DNA of 33,771 nt, taken from positions 1-33,771 of the IMG/VR virus record IMGVR_UViG_3300017986_000069, one strand, 5' to 3'. Numbering within the stretch: the stretch's first letter is position 1; each line of letters starts with the position of its first letter. Both the position numbers and the translations under genes were made by a program. The notes beneath the pieces are model-generated. The model made no database searches and had not been told where the DNA came from. It was given only the letters and a program-made list of their open reading frames with translations. Shown in pieces: positions 3,718-12,733 of the stretch. Source of the DNA: a virus.

Positions 3718-3922
3718 ATCATTTAAATCCATAGACAAAGTTACAAAGAAACTTTCAGTAGTTCATGACTATATGAAAGGCAAATCTAAAGACGAATTAT
3801 TTGAAACTATTAATAAAGATGGCGTCAATAAAAAACTTAGAGCAAAATGTATTCGAGAGTTAGACAGACGTAAAATTAAATATGTCTGGGAAAAACAACC
3901 TTCAACAAAGCTGGAATTATAA
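3698..3922 (+). CDS. Small conserved phage protein, 74 aa, function unknown
   Basis: ATG at 3698 with AGGAAGTG upstream (about 3687-3694) as the ribosome binding site; the gene begins within the last 20 nt of the previous gene and its stop overlaps the next start as TAATG, so the three genes are probably coupled. The protein is small and basic (M-P-T-K-F-S-K-S-F-K-S..., later L-R-A-K-C-I-R-E-L-D-R-R-K-I). This pattern, a Lys-rich start, a K-S-K-D-E-L-F-E helix and a final R-x-E-L-x-R-R-x-I-K segment, resembles short hypothetical proteins I recall from marine T4-like phages. No function is known to me. Confidence 0.7.
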   Translation: MPTKFSKSFKSIDKVTKKLSVVHDYMKGKSKDELFETINKDGVNKKLRAKCIRELDRRKIKYVWEKQPSTKLEL

Positions 3923-4239
3923 TGCCAATGTATGATATACAAGACATCGAAACAGGAGATGTCGATACTGTTATGTGTTCTTATGATAAACTCAAAGAAG
4001 TATTAGCAGAAAATCCCAATTTAAAACAAATTTACACAAAAGCGCCAGGTGTTATACATGGCACAGGCGATAGAACTAAACCACCTAAAGGCTTTATGGA
4101 TGTTCTAAGTAGAATATCAGAAGCCAATCCTACAAGTGCGTTAGCCGATGACTTAGGCAAAAAAGACCCAAAATCAGTAAAAATAAGAGAAGCCAATAAG
4201 AGAGTTAAGTCTAAGATAGGCGACTTATTTAAGACGTAA
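3922..4239 (+). CDS. Conserved phage protein related to the FmdB-like small-protein family, 105 aa
   Basis: The ATG overlaps the previous stop (TAATG). The N-terminus M-P-M-Y-D-I-Q-D-I-E-T-G-D followed by D-K-L-K-E-V-L-A-E-N-P-N-L and A-P-G-V-I-H-G-T-G resembles the FmdB-type small proteins of T4-like cyanophages, which begin M-P-T-Y-x(5-7)-T-G and carry an E-N-P-x-L motif and an S-A-P-x-I-V-S-G-like turn. The usual zinc-ribbon CxxC pairs are absent (one Cys only, about residue 19), so if related it is a metal-free version. The C-terminal third is Lys/Asp-rich and helical. Function unknown. It is the last gene before a stand-alone promoter. Confidence 0.65.
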   Translation: MPMYDIQDIETGDVDTVMCSYDKLKEVLAENPNLKQIYTKAPGVIHGTGDRTKPPKGFMDVLSRISEANPTSALADDLGKKDPKSVKIREANKRVKSKIGDLFKT

Positions 4240-4266
4240 AAAACACAACTTTTTTTAAAAAAATGC

Positions 4267-4295
4267 TTGACTTTTGGTCACCTCGGTTGTATAAT
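4267..4295 (+). promoter_or_regulatory. Strong sigma70-type promoter; predicted +1 falls on an ATG
   Basis: TTGACT (4267-4272), 17-bp spacer, perfect TATAAT (4290-4295). The next six bases are ATAAGT and then ATG at 4302, which is where +1 would fall. Preceded by an A/T homopolymer tract (4239-4263) resembling an UP element. Probably read by unmodified host RNA polymerase, so early. Confidence 0.85.
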
Positions 4296-4328
4296 ATAAG
4301 TATGTTAAACAATAAAAGTGAGGTAAAA

Positions 4329-4658
4329 ATGTTAAACAGTAAATATGAAGTAGCAGAAGCAAAAGCATTAGAATTATGTCAAGCAATCGAAGAAAAACAT
4401 AAAGTAGATTGGCCAACATTACCACTTAACGTATATCTTAAAAAAGGTAGAAAGTATATCAAAATTATTAGAAAAAATGAGTCTCAACAATGTGTATGGG
4501 GTTTCATTAACCTTAAAAATGAGAATTTTAATGTTGGTGATGTGTTAATGGCAGCAGGCTGGAACACACCAGCAACTAATAAAGCAAGAGGCAATATTGT
4601 AGAAAATGATTATAAAATTACAGGATCAAGATTATATGGCCCAGACTACCTTAAGTAA
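4329..4658 (+). CDS. Hypothetical protein, 109 aa (possible 118-aa leaderless form from 4302)
   Basis: A start at 4329 has a Shine-Dalgarno-like GTGAGG about 5 nt upstream and gives 109 aa. A second in-frame ATG at 4302 coincides with the predicted +1 of the promoter at 4267-4295 and would add nine residues from a leaderless mRNA. The earlier in-frame ATG at 4263 lies inside the promoter and is not usable. The protein has Y-I-K-I-I-R-K followed by V-W-G-F-I-N and then G-D-V-L-M-A-A-G-W-N-T-P-A-T-N-K-A-R-G-N-I, a pattern of short conserved hypothetical proteins in many phages (G-D-x-L-x-A-A-x-W-x-x-P-A-x-N-x-A-R-G-N). Function unknown. Its 3' end overlaps the exonuclease gene by 23 nt. Confidence 0.75.
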   Translation: MLNSKYEVAEAKALELCQAIEEKHKVDWPTLPLNVYLKKGRKYIKIIRKNESQQCVWGFINLKNENFNVGDVLMAAGWNTPATNKARGNIVENDYKITGSRLYGPDYLK

Positions 4659-5322
4659 ATATAAGCATAACTTTGTTGACGTTGGCGATATTCGCCAAGT
4701 CAACCTACCTGAAGGGCGTAGATATGTTACACCCGAAGGCAAGAAGTATCCTAGTGTTACAACAATATTAGGACATAAAACACCACCTTGGATATTAGCT
4801 TGGCGTAAAAGAATTGGTGAGGAAGAAGCAGACAAAATTGCTAGACGTGCAGCAGTTCGAGGCACTAAGTTTCACACTCTAACAGAAAATGTATTGCTTA
4901 ACAAAGAAACAGATCATAAAGAAGTATTAGGATTATTAGATCAAAAAATGTATGAATCTTATCGTCCATTACTAAATGATGTTGACAACATACAAGCAAT
5001 AGAAGCTAAATTATATTCAGACCATTTGCGTTTAGCAGGACAGGTAGACTGTATTGCAGAATATAAAGGTAAGCTTTCAGTTATAGATTTCAAAACATCT
5101 AAGAAAAAGAAAACACTCTCAGGATGTGGCAATTACTTTGTTCAAACAGCAGCTTATGCTATTATGTGGGAAGAAAGAACAGGCATTCCTGTAGATCAAA
5201 CAGTAATCATTATGGCAGTAGAAGAAGATGAACCAATTGTTCATGTTCAAAAACGTGATGATTATGTCCCTAGATTATTAGAACTTAGAGACGAATACGA
5301 AAAAGACGTCCAAACGGTATAA
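4636..5322 (+). CDS. PD-(D/E)xK exonuclease, RecB/Cas4 type
   Basis: 228-aa nuclease with the full RecB-family motif order: His80 (F-H-T-L-T-E), Glu123, G-Q-V-D with Asp138, V-I-D-F-K-T with Asp151 and Lys153, and Q-x3-Y at Gln170-Tyr174. The N-terminal Y-P-S-V-T-T-I-L-G motif is also typical of phage members. These enzymes bind Mg2+ and degrade DNA ends. I chose 4636 (M-A-Q-T-T-L-S) over 4606 because AGGA lies about 10 nt upstream and 4606 has no ribosome binding site. The gene overlaps the preceding one and shares its sigma70 promoter, suggesting early expression. There are no Cas4 iron-sulphur cysteines (only Cys139 and Cys164), so a plain exonuclease is more likely. Probable role: host DNA degradation or recombination/repair. 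Confidence 0.87.
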   Translation: MAQTTLSKYKHNFVDVGDIRQVNLPEGRRYVTPEGKKYPSVTTILGHKTPPWILAWRKRIGEEEADKIARRAAVRGTKFHTLTENVLLNKETDHKEVLGLLDQKMYESYRPLLNDVDNIQAIEAKLYSDHLRLAGQVDCIAEYKGKLSVIDFKTSKKKKTLSGCGNYFVQTAAYAIMWEERTGIPVDQTVIIMAVEEDEPIVHVQKRDDYVPRLLELRDEYEKDVQTV

Positions 5323-11100: not shown

Positions 11101-11159
11101 TCCATATCTCGCAGCATTTTCTCCATGCCTGCTATTAAACTTCTAGGTGCTTCTGGCAT
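8151..11159 (-). CDS. Large tape-measure-like virion protein, 1002 aa
   Basis: 1002-aa protein at the end of the minus-strand tail operon, starting in a TAATG overlap with the gp51 stop. Order of regions: charged helical/coiled-coil N-terminus (about 1-130); low-complexity Gly/Thr/Gln/Arg-rich part (about 130-240) with Q-E-L-P-L-S-G-G, a motif repeated at about 565 as R-E-L-P-L-T-G-G; further helical segments (240-600); a Lys/Gly tract (about 620-640); a long Gly/Ala-rich hydrophobic stretch (about 645-760) compatible with membrane insertion; charged helices (760-930); and a T-V-V-N-N-V-T-N-N-T tail. Large size, helical charged composition, a Gly/Ala hydrophobic segment and a position just after gp26/gp51 fit a tape measure protein (the job of T4 gp29). 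I do not see direct gp29 identity, so another internal virion protein is possible. Confidence 0.6.
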   Translation of the reverse strand: MPEAPRSLIAGMEKMLRDMEAAKSKDPSVEKEKGFNDLEQSIKDELDEVKRQSKEQTDFLKNEAKDNKTFNKMQIAETLISKRGNILKGRLEGDFYKEQRKHNKGARDSRIRVEQGIGALLKKIDDINAGRGGGGTGGQTVIVKDERSAPRTTTSTAQTTPNVSSSGTVPVQGELFGRDPNAPSIPRKVPVNQTQAQRQVNKRQQELPLSGGSNAPRRSRTYDPNNPSESLRERSYAVDPTDAKKELRGEKGDLEGNVNQNQMSKLLIGGQATVRREQYKTKTGKDATRYRNEITGALAKEDAYLESESRVENFISAVKDARGDDVIGAGETSNQLAFRTAKGSSSLAKNITANAATLQQLMESDPEGKVGEKIGGLTQLMNKAQTATGKDQEVAVKEVNNMIKELRVESQIAKESGVEGAPDFESLLGLKDLQKDLGKKTFTGSLKESLNIDQGAGFFGGLKQAFSPTRLFGDAGTGGLSNFYTDNQREEMAQREIRIQTGAEIQTRGLADMVGDEKGLSLTTPEGANPDNEFLRTDSSGRPQLNVAALEGATDAVAEGETTGQRELPLTGGGGKAKASGSVFSGTDRESFQEKSYEELVKIRELLEDGALGGDGDGGGGMDIMGRTGGKNKKGKKGKGKKGKLSRLGNMFKGKGAMLTKAGGAVAAVGLGAYTAYSGSKQAEADADAGKLTAEEEQIAKAEAVGEGVGGAGGALAGAAAGAAIGSAIPVVGTVVGGLIGGAIGYFGGSFAGKKLGGAVGDALDVDPGELAESNAQAEEAMKQIAEKDSGLASKIQQEANEIEAALLEEAGDAELSDNDKAAIKNAAIVKALMNNEAATSAIGVDRKKIADTLEANTEAGFKSAKESGLYKERGMRKSKIDRSKLGDASIDELQAIVQDDDLSADDMKAVQDALNQKKTGKAQVAGLDPVPTGDAVENMTSIEQQTGQMAGMQGGGQTVVNNVTNNTGSEGDIIVTAPPTSRINDNTPLHFQRRQYIGRRI

Positions 11160-11299
11160 TAGCTTTTCATATCCCTCACGGTTTCTTTATTCTTTTCTAT
11201 TTTCTTACGCAAGTGCACAACTAGCATACTTACATATATTTCTCTTTCCCAAGGCAACATTTCTTCTATTTCTGATAGACTCCAATGATGTTCTTGCAT
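11159..11299 (-). CDS. 51: gp51, baseplate hub assembly protein (probably expressed mainly by -1 frameshift from gp26)
   Basis: From the only ATG in frame (11299) the product is 46 aa: M-Q-E-H-H-W-S-L-S-E-I-E-E-M-L-P-W-E-R-E and so on. The P-W-E-R-E-I-Y-V-x-M-L signature matches the small gp51 proteins of marine T4-like phages. The frame is open and protein-like further upstream (I-T-L-S-Q-D-S-L-E-N-Y-F-K-T-N-F-L-L, 11353-11300), but contains no ATG, GTG, TTG or CTG there; only an ATA overlapping the gp26 stop. That missing part is reached if ribosomes slip -1 on T-TTT-TTC at 11362-11356 near the end of gp26, giving a gp26-gp51 fusion of about 297 aa. Its stop overlaps the next start as TAATG. 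Whether a free 46-aa form is made is unclear. Confidence 0.75.
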   Translation of the reverse strand: MQEHHWSLSEIEEMLPWEREIYVSMLVVHLRKKIEKNKETVRDMKS

Positions 11300-11313
11300 T
11301 AATAAGAAATTCG

Positions 11314-11342
11314 TCTTGAAATAATTTTCAAGAGAATCTTGA
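11314..11342 (-). repeat. Alternative stem-loops downstream of the frameshift site
   Basis: TCTTGAAA (minus 11333-11326), loop ATTA, TTTCAAGA (11321-11314) forms an 8-bp perfect hairpin. A TCAAGA just upstream (11342-11337) can instead pair with TCTTGA (11333-11328) around a 3-nt loop. Both structures lie 13-22 nt after the slippery heptamer, further than the usual 5-9 nt, so a stimulatory role is uncertain. Confidence 0.5.
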
Positions 11343-11349
11343 GAAAGAG

Positions 11350-12051
11350 TTATGCGAAAAAATGTTCGTATCCGTTAATTGATACTGCATTTGGCTTTCC
11401 GCAATCTTCTTTAGGACAAGTATATTCTACAATGTGTTCTAACATTGGCATTGTCTTAAAGAACTCTCTAGTCTCTGCAAGAGCCTCAAGTGGTAAAGTT
11501 TCTACAAAACCTACAACTTCATCATCTGTTTCCTTAGATACATCCCATGATTGTTCGGCATCAAATACGGTGTCGATACAATGTTTTAGGATCTCAACAT
11601 CATCCAAGTCATCAATTTTATTCATTATGTGTGCTGGCGGGAATTTTAATATCATTCCTACAGTCTTATCTTCATTTAGAAAAATTGTTTTTGAGGAATC
11701 TGAATCAAGATTATTAATCTTAAATTCATCAACTTCAACTTCATAACTCATTGTGCCTTTACAATGTCCACAAATTAACATGAACTCTTGTTTGTTACCT
11801 ACAGACTCTTTTCTTATTTGTAAGAAAGTCCATTGTAACAAGTGCATTGGCAATTTAGTTGCATCTACTTCTCCAAACGAACAGTTGGTGACAACTTGTT
11901 GACATACGTTAAGCATATCTTCATATTCACCGTCAGAAGCCATTGTTAAAAGTTTTTCTTCTTTTACCTTAAAAGGCCTAAATTTATATGTTTCATTTGT
12001 TCCTGGGAACGTTAAATTAAATGTTGGTGTCTCCAATACTGGTAGCGCCAT
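11350..12051 (-). CDS. 26: gp26-like baseplate hub assembly protein
   Basis: 233-aa protein of the T4 base plate (gp26) family. The start M-A-L-P-V-L-E-T-P, then F-R-P-F-K-V-K-E-E-K-L-L (25-35), N-C-S-F-G (56-60) and I-R-K-E-S-V-G (79-85) are typical. Two Cys pairs, C-G-H-C (94-97) and C-x4-C (212, 217), probably form a zinc ribbon. In T4, gp26 and gp51 are adjacent and needed to assemble the central hub with the tape measure gp29. Ribosome binding site AGGAGA lies 6 nt upstream of the ATG at 12051. The gene ends with a slippery T-TTT-TTC two codons before the stop, which would fuse it to gp51 in the -1 frame. Start and family are clear; the frameshift is inference from sequence. Confidence 0.85.
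   Translation of the reverse strand: MALPVLETPTFNLTFPGTNETYKFRPFKVKEEKLLTMASDGEYEDMLNVCQQVVTNCSFGEVDATKLPMHLLQWTFLQIRKESVGNKQEFMLICGHCKGTMSYEVEVDEFKINNLDSDSSKTIFLNEDKTVGMILKFPPAHIMNKIDDLDDVEILKHCIDTVFDAEQSWDVSKETDDEVVGFVETLPLEALAETREFFKTMPMLEHIVEYTCPKEDCGKPNAVSINGYEHFFA
11356..11362 (-). promoter_or_regulatory. Slippery heptamer T TTT TTC: candidate programmed -1 frameshift site (gp26 to gp51)
   Basis: On the minus strand the last gp26 codons read GAA CAT TTT TTC GCA TAA. The heptamer is in the correct X-XXY-YYZ phase, two codons before the gp26 stop. A -1 slip reads TTT TTT CGC ATA ACT and enters the gp51 frame, which is open from there. Confidence 0.65.
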
Positions 12052-12070: not shown

Positions 12071-12733
12071 TTAAATAAAAGGATCTCTTTGAGGAGGTTG
12101 TCCTTTATTTGATTTTAATTTGCCGTCTTCAAAAGTTCCATCTAAAACCGGTCTTTGTTTCTTTCTTGCATCCTCTGCAATTGGCTCACATGGTTTGTAT
12201 ATCCATTTAACTGAAGATACGGTGAGTGAGATTCTTAAAGGACCAGGCGAACCTGCTGAAACAGGAATCAAGTTTAAAAGTTTTGGAACACTATCAATAA
12301 GTTTCCATTCTCCTAATACTTGATCTTGTTGCGACAAACTTTTTACTACAATAGACCCAAATACTTCATCCGGGAATGCTAACTCTTTTGTATAAGGATT
12401 AGCAGCTAGAAATATCCAGTCTTCAAAAACGTGCCTATGGGCCCATTTTTCATCTGCAATAAATGTAAACACAGACTCTTGTCCTAAAAAGTCTACGTTC
12501 TTAATTCTGTATTCCTGCCAAGCACCTATTTTAACAGGTTCTACTTGGGCAGAAAGTCCTGGGATTTGAGCTTCTTCACAAAATAAAGTAAGAGTTTCAT
12601 CTACACCCGGATACCATTGTCTTAATGCAAAAGGTAAATTAAACTCTACCTCATACCTATCAGCACGAGGTAAATGTTGTTCTCTTACCGCAGCTCTAAA
12701 ATTGCTTAGTTTAAATTTTGCTTTATCAGCCAT
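12071..12733 (-). CDS. Tail-tube-fold protein, probably baseplate tail tube initiator (gp54-like)
   Basis: 220-aa protein with the layout of T4 tail-tube family members (gp19/gp54): R-A-D-R-Y-E-V-E-F-N-L-P (24-35), then L-F-C-E-E-A-Q-I-P-G-L (49-59), a strand with F-T-F-I-A-D (88-93), F-E-D-W-I-F-L-A-A-N-P-Y-T (102-114) and a final V-S-S-V-K-W-I-Y (172-179) followed by a disordered Lys/Pro tail. The R-Y-E-V... I-P-G... F-x-x-W pattern is typical of proteins that stack as the tail tube. Presence in an operon with gp26, gp51 and the tape-measure-like protein, and gp48 on the other side of the divergent promoter region, suggests gp54 rather than the major tube protein gp19. The start overlaps the preceding gene by 8 nt. 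T4 gp54 is longer (320 aa). Confidence 0.6.
   Translation of the reverse strand: MADKAKFKLSNFRAAVREQHLPRADRYEVEFNLPFALRQWYPGVDETLTLFCEEAQIPGLSAQVEPVKIGAWQEYRIKNVDFLGQESVFTFIADEKWAHRHVFEDWIFLAANPYTKELAFPDEVFGSIVVKSLSQQDQVLGEWKLIDSVPKLLNLIPVSAGSPGPLRISLTVSSVKWIYKPCEPIAEDARKKQRPVLDGTFEDGKLKSNKGQPPQRDPFI

Follow-up and report, generated by a model that had tools for sequence, protein, structure and literature searches.

The -1 frameshift that yields gpG and gpGT in phage lambda was reportedly described by Levin in 1993 and Xu in 2004. For the T4-like phages, the abstract of Vladimirov et al. 2022 is said to state that frameshifting is kept in several groups and that T4 uses genes 26 and 51. The tail assembly chaperone (TAC) genes of that work reportedly belong to the same gene family as gp26 and gp51 of the locus described here. 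Atkins et al. in 2016 described the G-T frameshift as widely conserved in long-tailed phages "except T4" (PMC5009743). In the passages of two later papers that refer to it, the title of Vladimirov, Gautam and Davidson 2022 announces the identification of the TAC genes in T4-like phages and suggests that their products arise otherwise than by frameshifting (PMC10885494, PMC12846349). The same passages credit this work with poly-T slip sites in T4-like TAC-N genes (PMC12846349) and with two gene copies, one short and one long (fused), replacing frameshifting in some T4-like phages (PRFect, PMC10885494). The original prediction for our locus had held that a gp26/gp51 frameshift was not a standard description; going by these passages, this part did not stand, poly-T slip sites in T4-like TAC genes having been described in 2022. 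Since such slippage was then proposed for T4-like phages, the gp26-gp51 slip adds a well-documented example to a mechanism already known.

We propose that gp26 and the gp51 frame of the window (the whole stretch of viral DNA analysed, 33,771 nucleotides) constitute one chaperone gene with two products obtained through a -1 slip on U UUU UUC, a reading to which we give a probability of about 0.92.

Anatomy of the probable slip site in the window

The virus record carries genes of T4-like myovirus type, and its nearest named relatives are marine Kyanoviridae (pelagiphages, Melnitz, and cyanophages). On the minus strand, the gene order is head closure gp4, DNA-end protector gp2, tail tube, gp26, gp51 frame, and tape-measure-like protein (Table 1). 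The last four are comparable to the V-G-T-H order of lambda. With a phrog_45 gene upstream and a phrog_794 gene downstream, gp26 and the gp51 frame occupy a chaperone-type position, and the gp51-frame stop (TAA 11161-11159) shares a base with the tape-measure ATG (11159) in a TAATG overlap.

The 3' end of gp26 reads CAT TTT TTC GCA TAA, in which T TTT TTC lies in phase as the original prediction had stated, with one sense codon (GCA) between it and the stop; it is the sole in-phase X XXY YYZ within the window gp26. Translation of the -1 frame from the slip onward gives FFRITLSQDSLENYFKTNFLLMQEHHWSLSEIEEMLPWEREIYVSMLVVHLRKKIEKNKETVRDMKS; this frame remains open until TAA 11161-11159 and is indeed the gp51 frame, and up to the gp51 Met it runs FFRITLSQDSLENYFKTNFLL-M... 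Between the slip and ATG 11299 lie 19 codons devoid of ATG, GTG, TTG, and CTG, which agree with the 18 announced when counted from ATA 11353. The conceptual fused product is 297 aa long, as foreseen, versus 233 aa for gp26, and its extension represents 67 residues, counting both slip-site Phe. By anatomy, the locus thus specifies a short and a long form with a common N-terminal domain.

Table 1. Features of the gp26/gp51 locus and its neighbors (window coordinates).
Feature	Position	Strand	Support or remark
gp26 zero-frame product, 233 aa, putative TAC-N	11350..12051	-	PF12322 T4_baseplate, E=1.3e-42
Slippery heptamer T TTT TTC	11356..11362	-	in phase with gp26; kept in 118/118 + 80/80 related loci
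gp26 stop codon TAA	11350..11352	-	offset from the slip differs among relatives
-1 frame extension and stop, putative TAC-C domain, containing the annotated-style gp51	11159..11362	-	phrog_634, phrog_150
Stand-alone gp51 ORF, gene-finder style, 46 aa, ATG 11299	11159..11299	-	ORF list
Candidate stimulatory hairpin, 16 nt past the heptamer	11307..11339	-	-11.2 kcal/mol, z=-3.71
Tape-measure-like protein, 1002 aa	8151..11159	-	phrog_794 tail length tape measure, E=2.1e-9
Tail-tube protein, upstream of gp26	12071..12733	-	phrog_45 tail tube, E=2.4e-17

Conservation of the heptamer and of the -1 extension

The six coding sequences around the site contain 12 in-phase X XXY YYZ per 2,227 positions. 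A single heptamer in a single gene is weak evidence, because the chance of finding one in any 5 given codons is ~3%. Alignment of related gp26/gp51 loci, the check called for by the original prediction, revealed that T TTT TTC or T TTT TTT is kept at the gp26 end, with an open -1 frame, in all 118 first-round loci (the window, two isolates, and viral contigs recovered by three scans, each with a readable gp26 end). The same holds for T TTT TT(C/T/A) and an open -1 frame in 80/80 more distant loci, which came from a fourth scan with a gp26 profile and whose gp26 is 29 to 45% identical to that of the window. Many loci are near-copies (193 collapse to 69 non-redundant loci), and the contig ends inside the extension in four of them (L017, L072, L146, and L151, two being within the 80-locus set). 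This recurrence at the same aligned position, together with the open -1 frame in both sets, removes chance. The best reading, and one that the comparison supports, is that gp26 is fused to gp51 through programmed -1 frameshifting, the heptamer being kept in close and distant homologues; the slip itself is very probably real.

The strictness of the site is also apparent in its spelling. Among 52 clustered gp26 sequences, T TTT TTY encodes 52/52 terminal Phe-Phe pairs versus 1/51 other pairs, and the codon preceding the slip always ends in T versus 39% of gp26 codons. Counted from the first T, the gp26 stop is found at 7, 10, 16, or 31 nt depending on the locus; what is fixed in position is thus the slip site, whereas the stop drifts. 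Carriers of the slip include Aeh1, PX29, Aeromonas AP1, phi-Grn1, Stenotrophomonas Bhz51, PhiW-14, Rhizobium RHph_Y68, pelagiphages, Melnitz, and cyanophages. In one locus (L115), gp26 is interrupted by an unrelated internal stop, the heptamer being still present; this TAA, at ~1987 of a HTVC008M-like contig otherwise 99% identical, is probably a sequence error or the mark of a dead copy.

Variant sites were also observed. The slip site at the gp26 end of RHph_Y68 (L141) is T TTT TTG and not T TTT TTY. Three Ackermannviridae loci (L124, L131, and L130) and Vibrio phage K361 (L125) are without the canonical heptamer at the gp26 end; in all four, a gp51-like extension (..MPWHLDLL.. or similar) is nonetheless encoded in the -1 frame past gp26, and NTT TTC occurs near the gp26 stop. 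The Ackermannviridae with NTT TTC, in the form ATT TTC, are Salmonella, Dickeya, and Aeromonas phiA8-29 phages. The NTT TTC motif is reminiscent of the slip site of T7 gene 10, G GUU UUC.

The T run itself could suggest another origin of the two products, namely, slippage of the RNA polymerase giving mixed mRNAs, as a homopolymer of 6 to 9 T is present at every site. However, the run at most sites is limited to six T before a C, which is short for polymerase slippage, their phase relative to the codons is always X XXY YYZ, and hairpins lie past the site in two clades. We therefore regard transcriptional slippage as highly improbable and retain -1 slippage of the ribosome.

Regarding these hairpins, none of 200 shuffles was as stable as that of the window, whose spacing from the heptamer exceeds the 5 to 9 nt usual for stimulators. 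Cyanophages have a different hairpin ~7 nt past the heptamer, in which the named pairing outdoes slid versions and covariation is modest. Over the 69 non-redundant loci, mean z was -0.74 past the slip versus -0.33 in the gene body (p=0.009). We rejected the idea that all loci share a stimulatory hairpin, as the signal is strong only in the clade of the window and in cyanophages; over the 69 loci it is weak, and we treat the structure as a putative clade-specific helper. The Rfam scan of the locus gave no match.

The extension, of about 57 to 71 residues, is conserved across loci. Its identity to that of the window is 32 to 72% in 49 aligned loci versus 26 to 46% for gp26, so that conservation is generally higher in the extension than in gp26. 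Both parts of the product belong to the T4 gp26/gp51 family (PF12322, phrog_150, and phrog_634; E=1.3e-42, 6.5e-43, and 1.2e-23). Already in its first residues, well ahead of the ATG, the -1 peptide aligns with phrog_634 (baseplate hub assembly catalyst, gp51), and phrog_150 (baseplate hub) crosses the junction, gp26 covering 5-232 and the -1 peptide 235-276 of 282. NCBIfam has no model for the window gp26 or gp51. From the slip to the first Met, variation by codon position in the -1 frame is 0.26/0.21/0.51, mostly at the third position and coding-like. The extension is protein-coding, and its conservation holds before as well as after every codon that might serve as a start.

These data bear directly on the current cyanophage annotation, in which gp51 is an independent 46-aa protein initiated at ATG 11299 and gp26 and gp51 are merely adjacent genes. 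An ATG is found 22 codons into the extension in 47/51 clustered loci, and gp51 is annotated separately in records such as HTVC008M and S-RSM4. Nevertheless, this start is absent in four loci (L016, L026, L028, and L121), no SD-like sequence precedes it in any of the 51, and the annotated starts disagree between records (Mosig, S-PM2, and P-SSM7). The 19 codons ahead of the ATG are moreover conserved as protein and match phrog_634 and phrog_150, and the invariant heptamer would be left unexplained. An independent gp51 is thus very unlikely. Neither of the cases that the original prediction had named against itself, overlapping genes with no heptamer and a good gp51 start or evidence of translation only from ATG 11299 or ATA 11353, is what the loci display, the start being neither universal nor preceded by an SD-like sequence. 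Given the ATG in 47/51 loci, separate initiation of a short gp51 may occur in addition to the slip. A non-standard start near the gp26 stop has the least to recommend it: ATA 11353 of the window is shared with most cyanophages, but this codon is Leu in 10/51 and Val in 5/51 relatives, so that no start-like codon is conserved there, and we consider initiation at this place extremely improbable.

T4 genes 26 and 51

The frameshift reading accounts for two earlier descriptions. Sullivan et al. in 2010 reported that cyanophage gp51 has ~20% of the usual length, its first ~200 residues being missing, and that gp51 is absent from Aeh1 (PMC3037559); the short length was noted there with no explanation. 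Cyanophage gp51 looks short because gp26, read in the zero frame, supplies the residues that it lacks, and gp51 was reported absent from Aeh1 because its extension sits in the -1 frame downstream of T TTT TTC. In the Aeh1 locus (L137), this unannotated extension lies at ~2498-2680.

In T4, PF12322 includes both gp26 (208 aa) and gp51 (249 aa). In the T4 locus (L030), their genes are located at 3803-4429 and 4480-5229 on opposite strands. T4 gp51 spans 13-280 of phrog_150 and has in addition a phrog_634 match. In an alignment that includes the conceptual fusions, the end of T4 gp26 falls at the slip position, where the extension begins, whereas T4 gp51 runs on collinearly, its C-terminus corresponding to the extension. 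Hence, T4 gp51 resembles the fused product of the window and T4 gp26 its short product, with the difference that T4 has two separate genes on opposite strands and no slip. Judged by their sequences, T4 gp26 and gp51 are paralogues, gp51 being the long form. Separate short and long genes are found in T4 and in its Straboviridae relative Maroon, and the tree places the T4-type genes on one side of a branch with moderate support (92/95) and long branches, a topology that is compatible with a single duplication.

We tentatively put forward an evolutionary scenario in which the gp26/gp51 slip would be the ancestral state, shared by nearly all lineages other than the T4 group, and would persist in Ackermannviridae and some Vibrio phages through the non-canonical NTT TTC, the T4 pair having arisen by a duplication that fixed each product, short and long, in a gene of its own. 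This scenario is possible, with odds somewhat short of even.

Putative chaperone function and comparison with known systems

By analogy, gp26 and its fusion are most likely a T4-like TAC-N/TAC-NC pair, the analogue of lambda gpG/gpGT. In the model that we propose, most ribosomes would halt at TAA 11352-11350 and release gp26 as TAC-N, while a minority would move one base back on U UUU UUC and produce the 297-residue TAC-NC carrying the gp51-frame domain. On the pattern of lambda gpG/gpGT, the protein encoded by the adjacent tape-measure gene would be bound by many copies of the short form and few of the long form, the extra gp51-frame domain would recruit tail-tube subunits, and neither form would remain in the virion. 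Slippage in vivo and such an efficiency are what we infer from the locus, and a chaperone role is proposed because of the lambda analogy (PMC5009743) and of T4 gp51, which is needed for assembly and absent from the final particle (PMC3004832).

The fold of gp26 was predicted with AlphaFold (mean pLDDT, 93.6) from an alignment of the scan loci. The search of the PDB with this model gave no significant match among the 50 best matches listed. The HK97 tail assembly chaperone 2ob9 ranked 38 with E=3.9, which is not significant, despite having the top probability (0.13) and target TM-score (0.42) among these 50; its likeness to gp26 is suggestive only. The PDB sequence search with the gp26 profile returned nothing meaningful and no sequence relative. 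In the viral structure library, the matches were mainly other gp26-like proteins of diverse phages. Gp26-like folds were seen in such distant phages as Bacillus SP-15 and Campylobacter CP220 and in siphovirus contigs, and the chaperone family may therefore be much wider.

Our study corrects a widespread annotation, since hundreds of cyanophage and pelagiphage records carry a truncated "gp51" with a guessed start, and its practical gain is a correct joined-CDS annotation. Read as one frameshifted chaperone gene, the locus aligns T4-like tails with those of lambda, P2, and Mu, T4 being the exception. As with lambda gpG/gpGT, a short chaperone ORF undergoes a -1 slip near its 3' end and the extension reaches the tape-measure gene; lambda, however, slips on G GGA AAG and its gpG is shorter, and the likeness drawn here is one of anatomy. 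The TAC locus of Pseudomonas phage Adele (Vandenendeviridae/Andersonviridae) shares a conserved -1 slip, a T-rich site, and an uninterrupted -1 frame, which, like gp51, is usually annotated as a separate hypothetical gene, whereas its site is GTTTTT and the phage families are different (PMC12846349).
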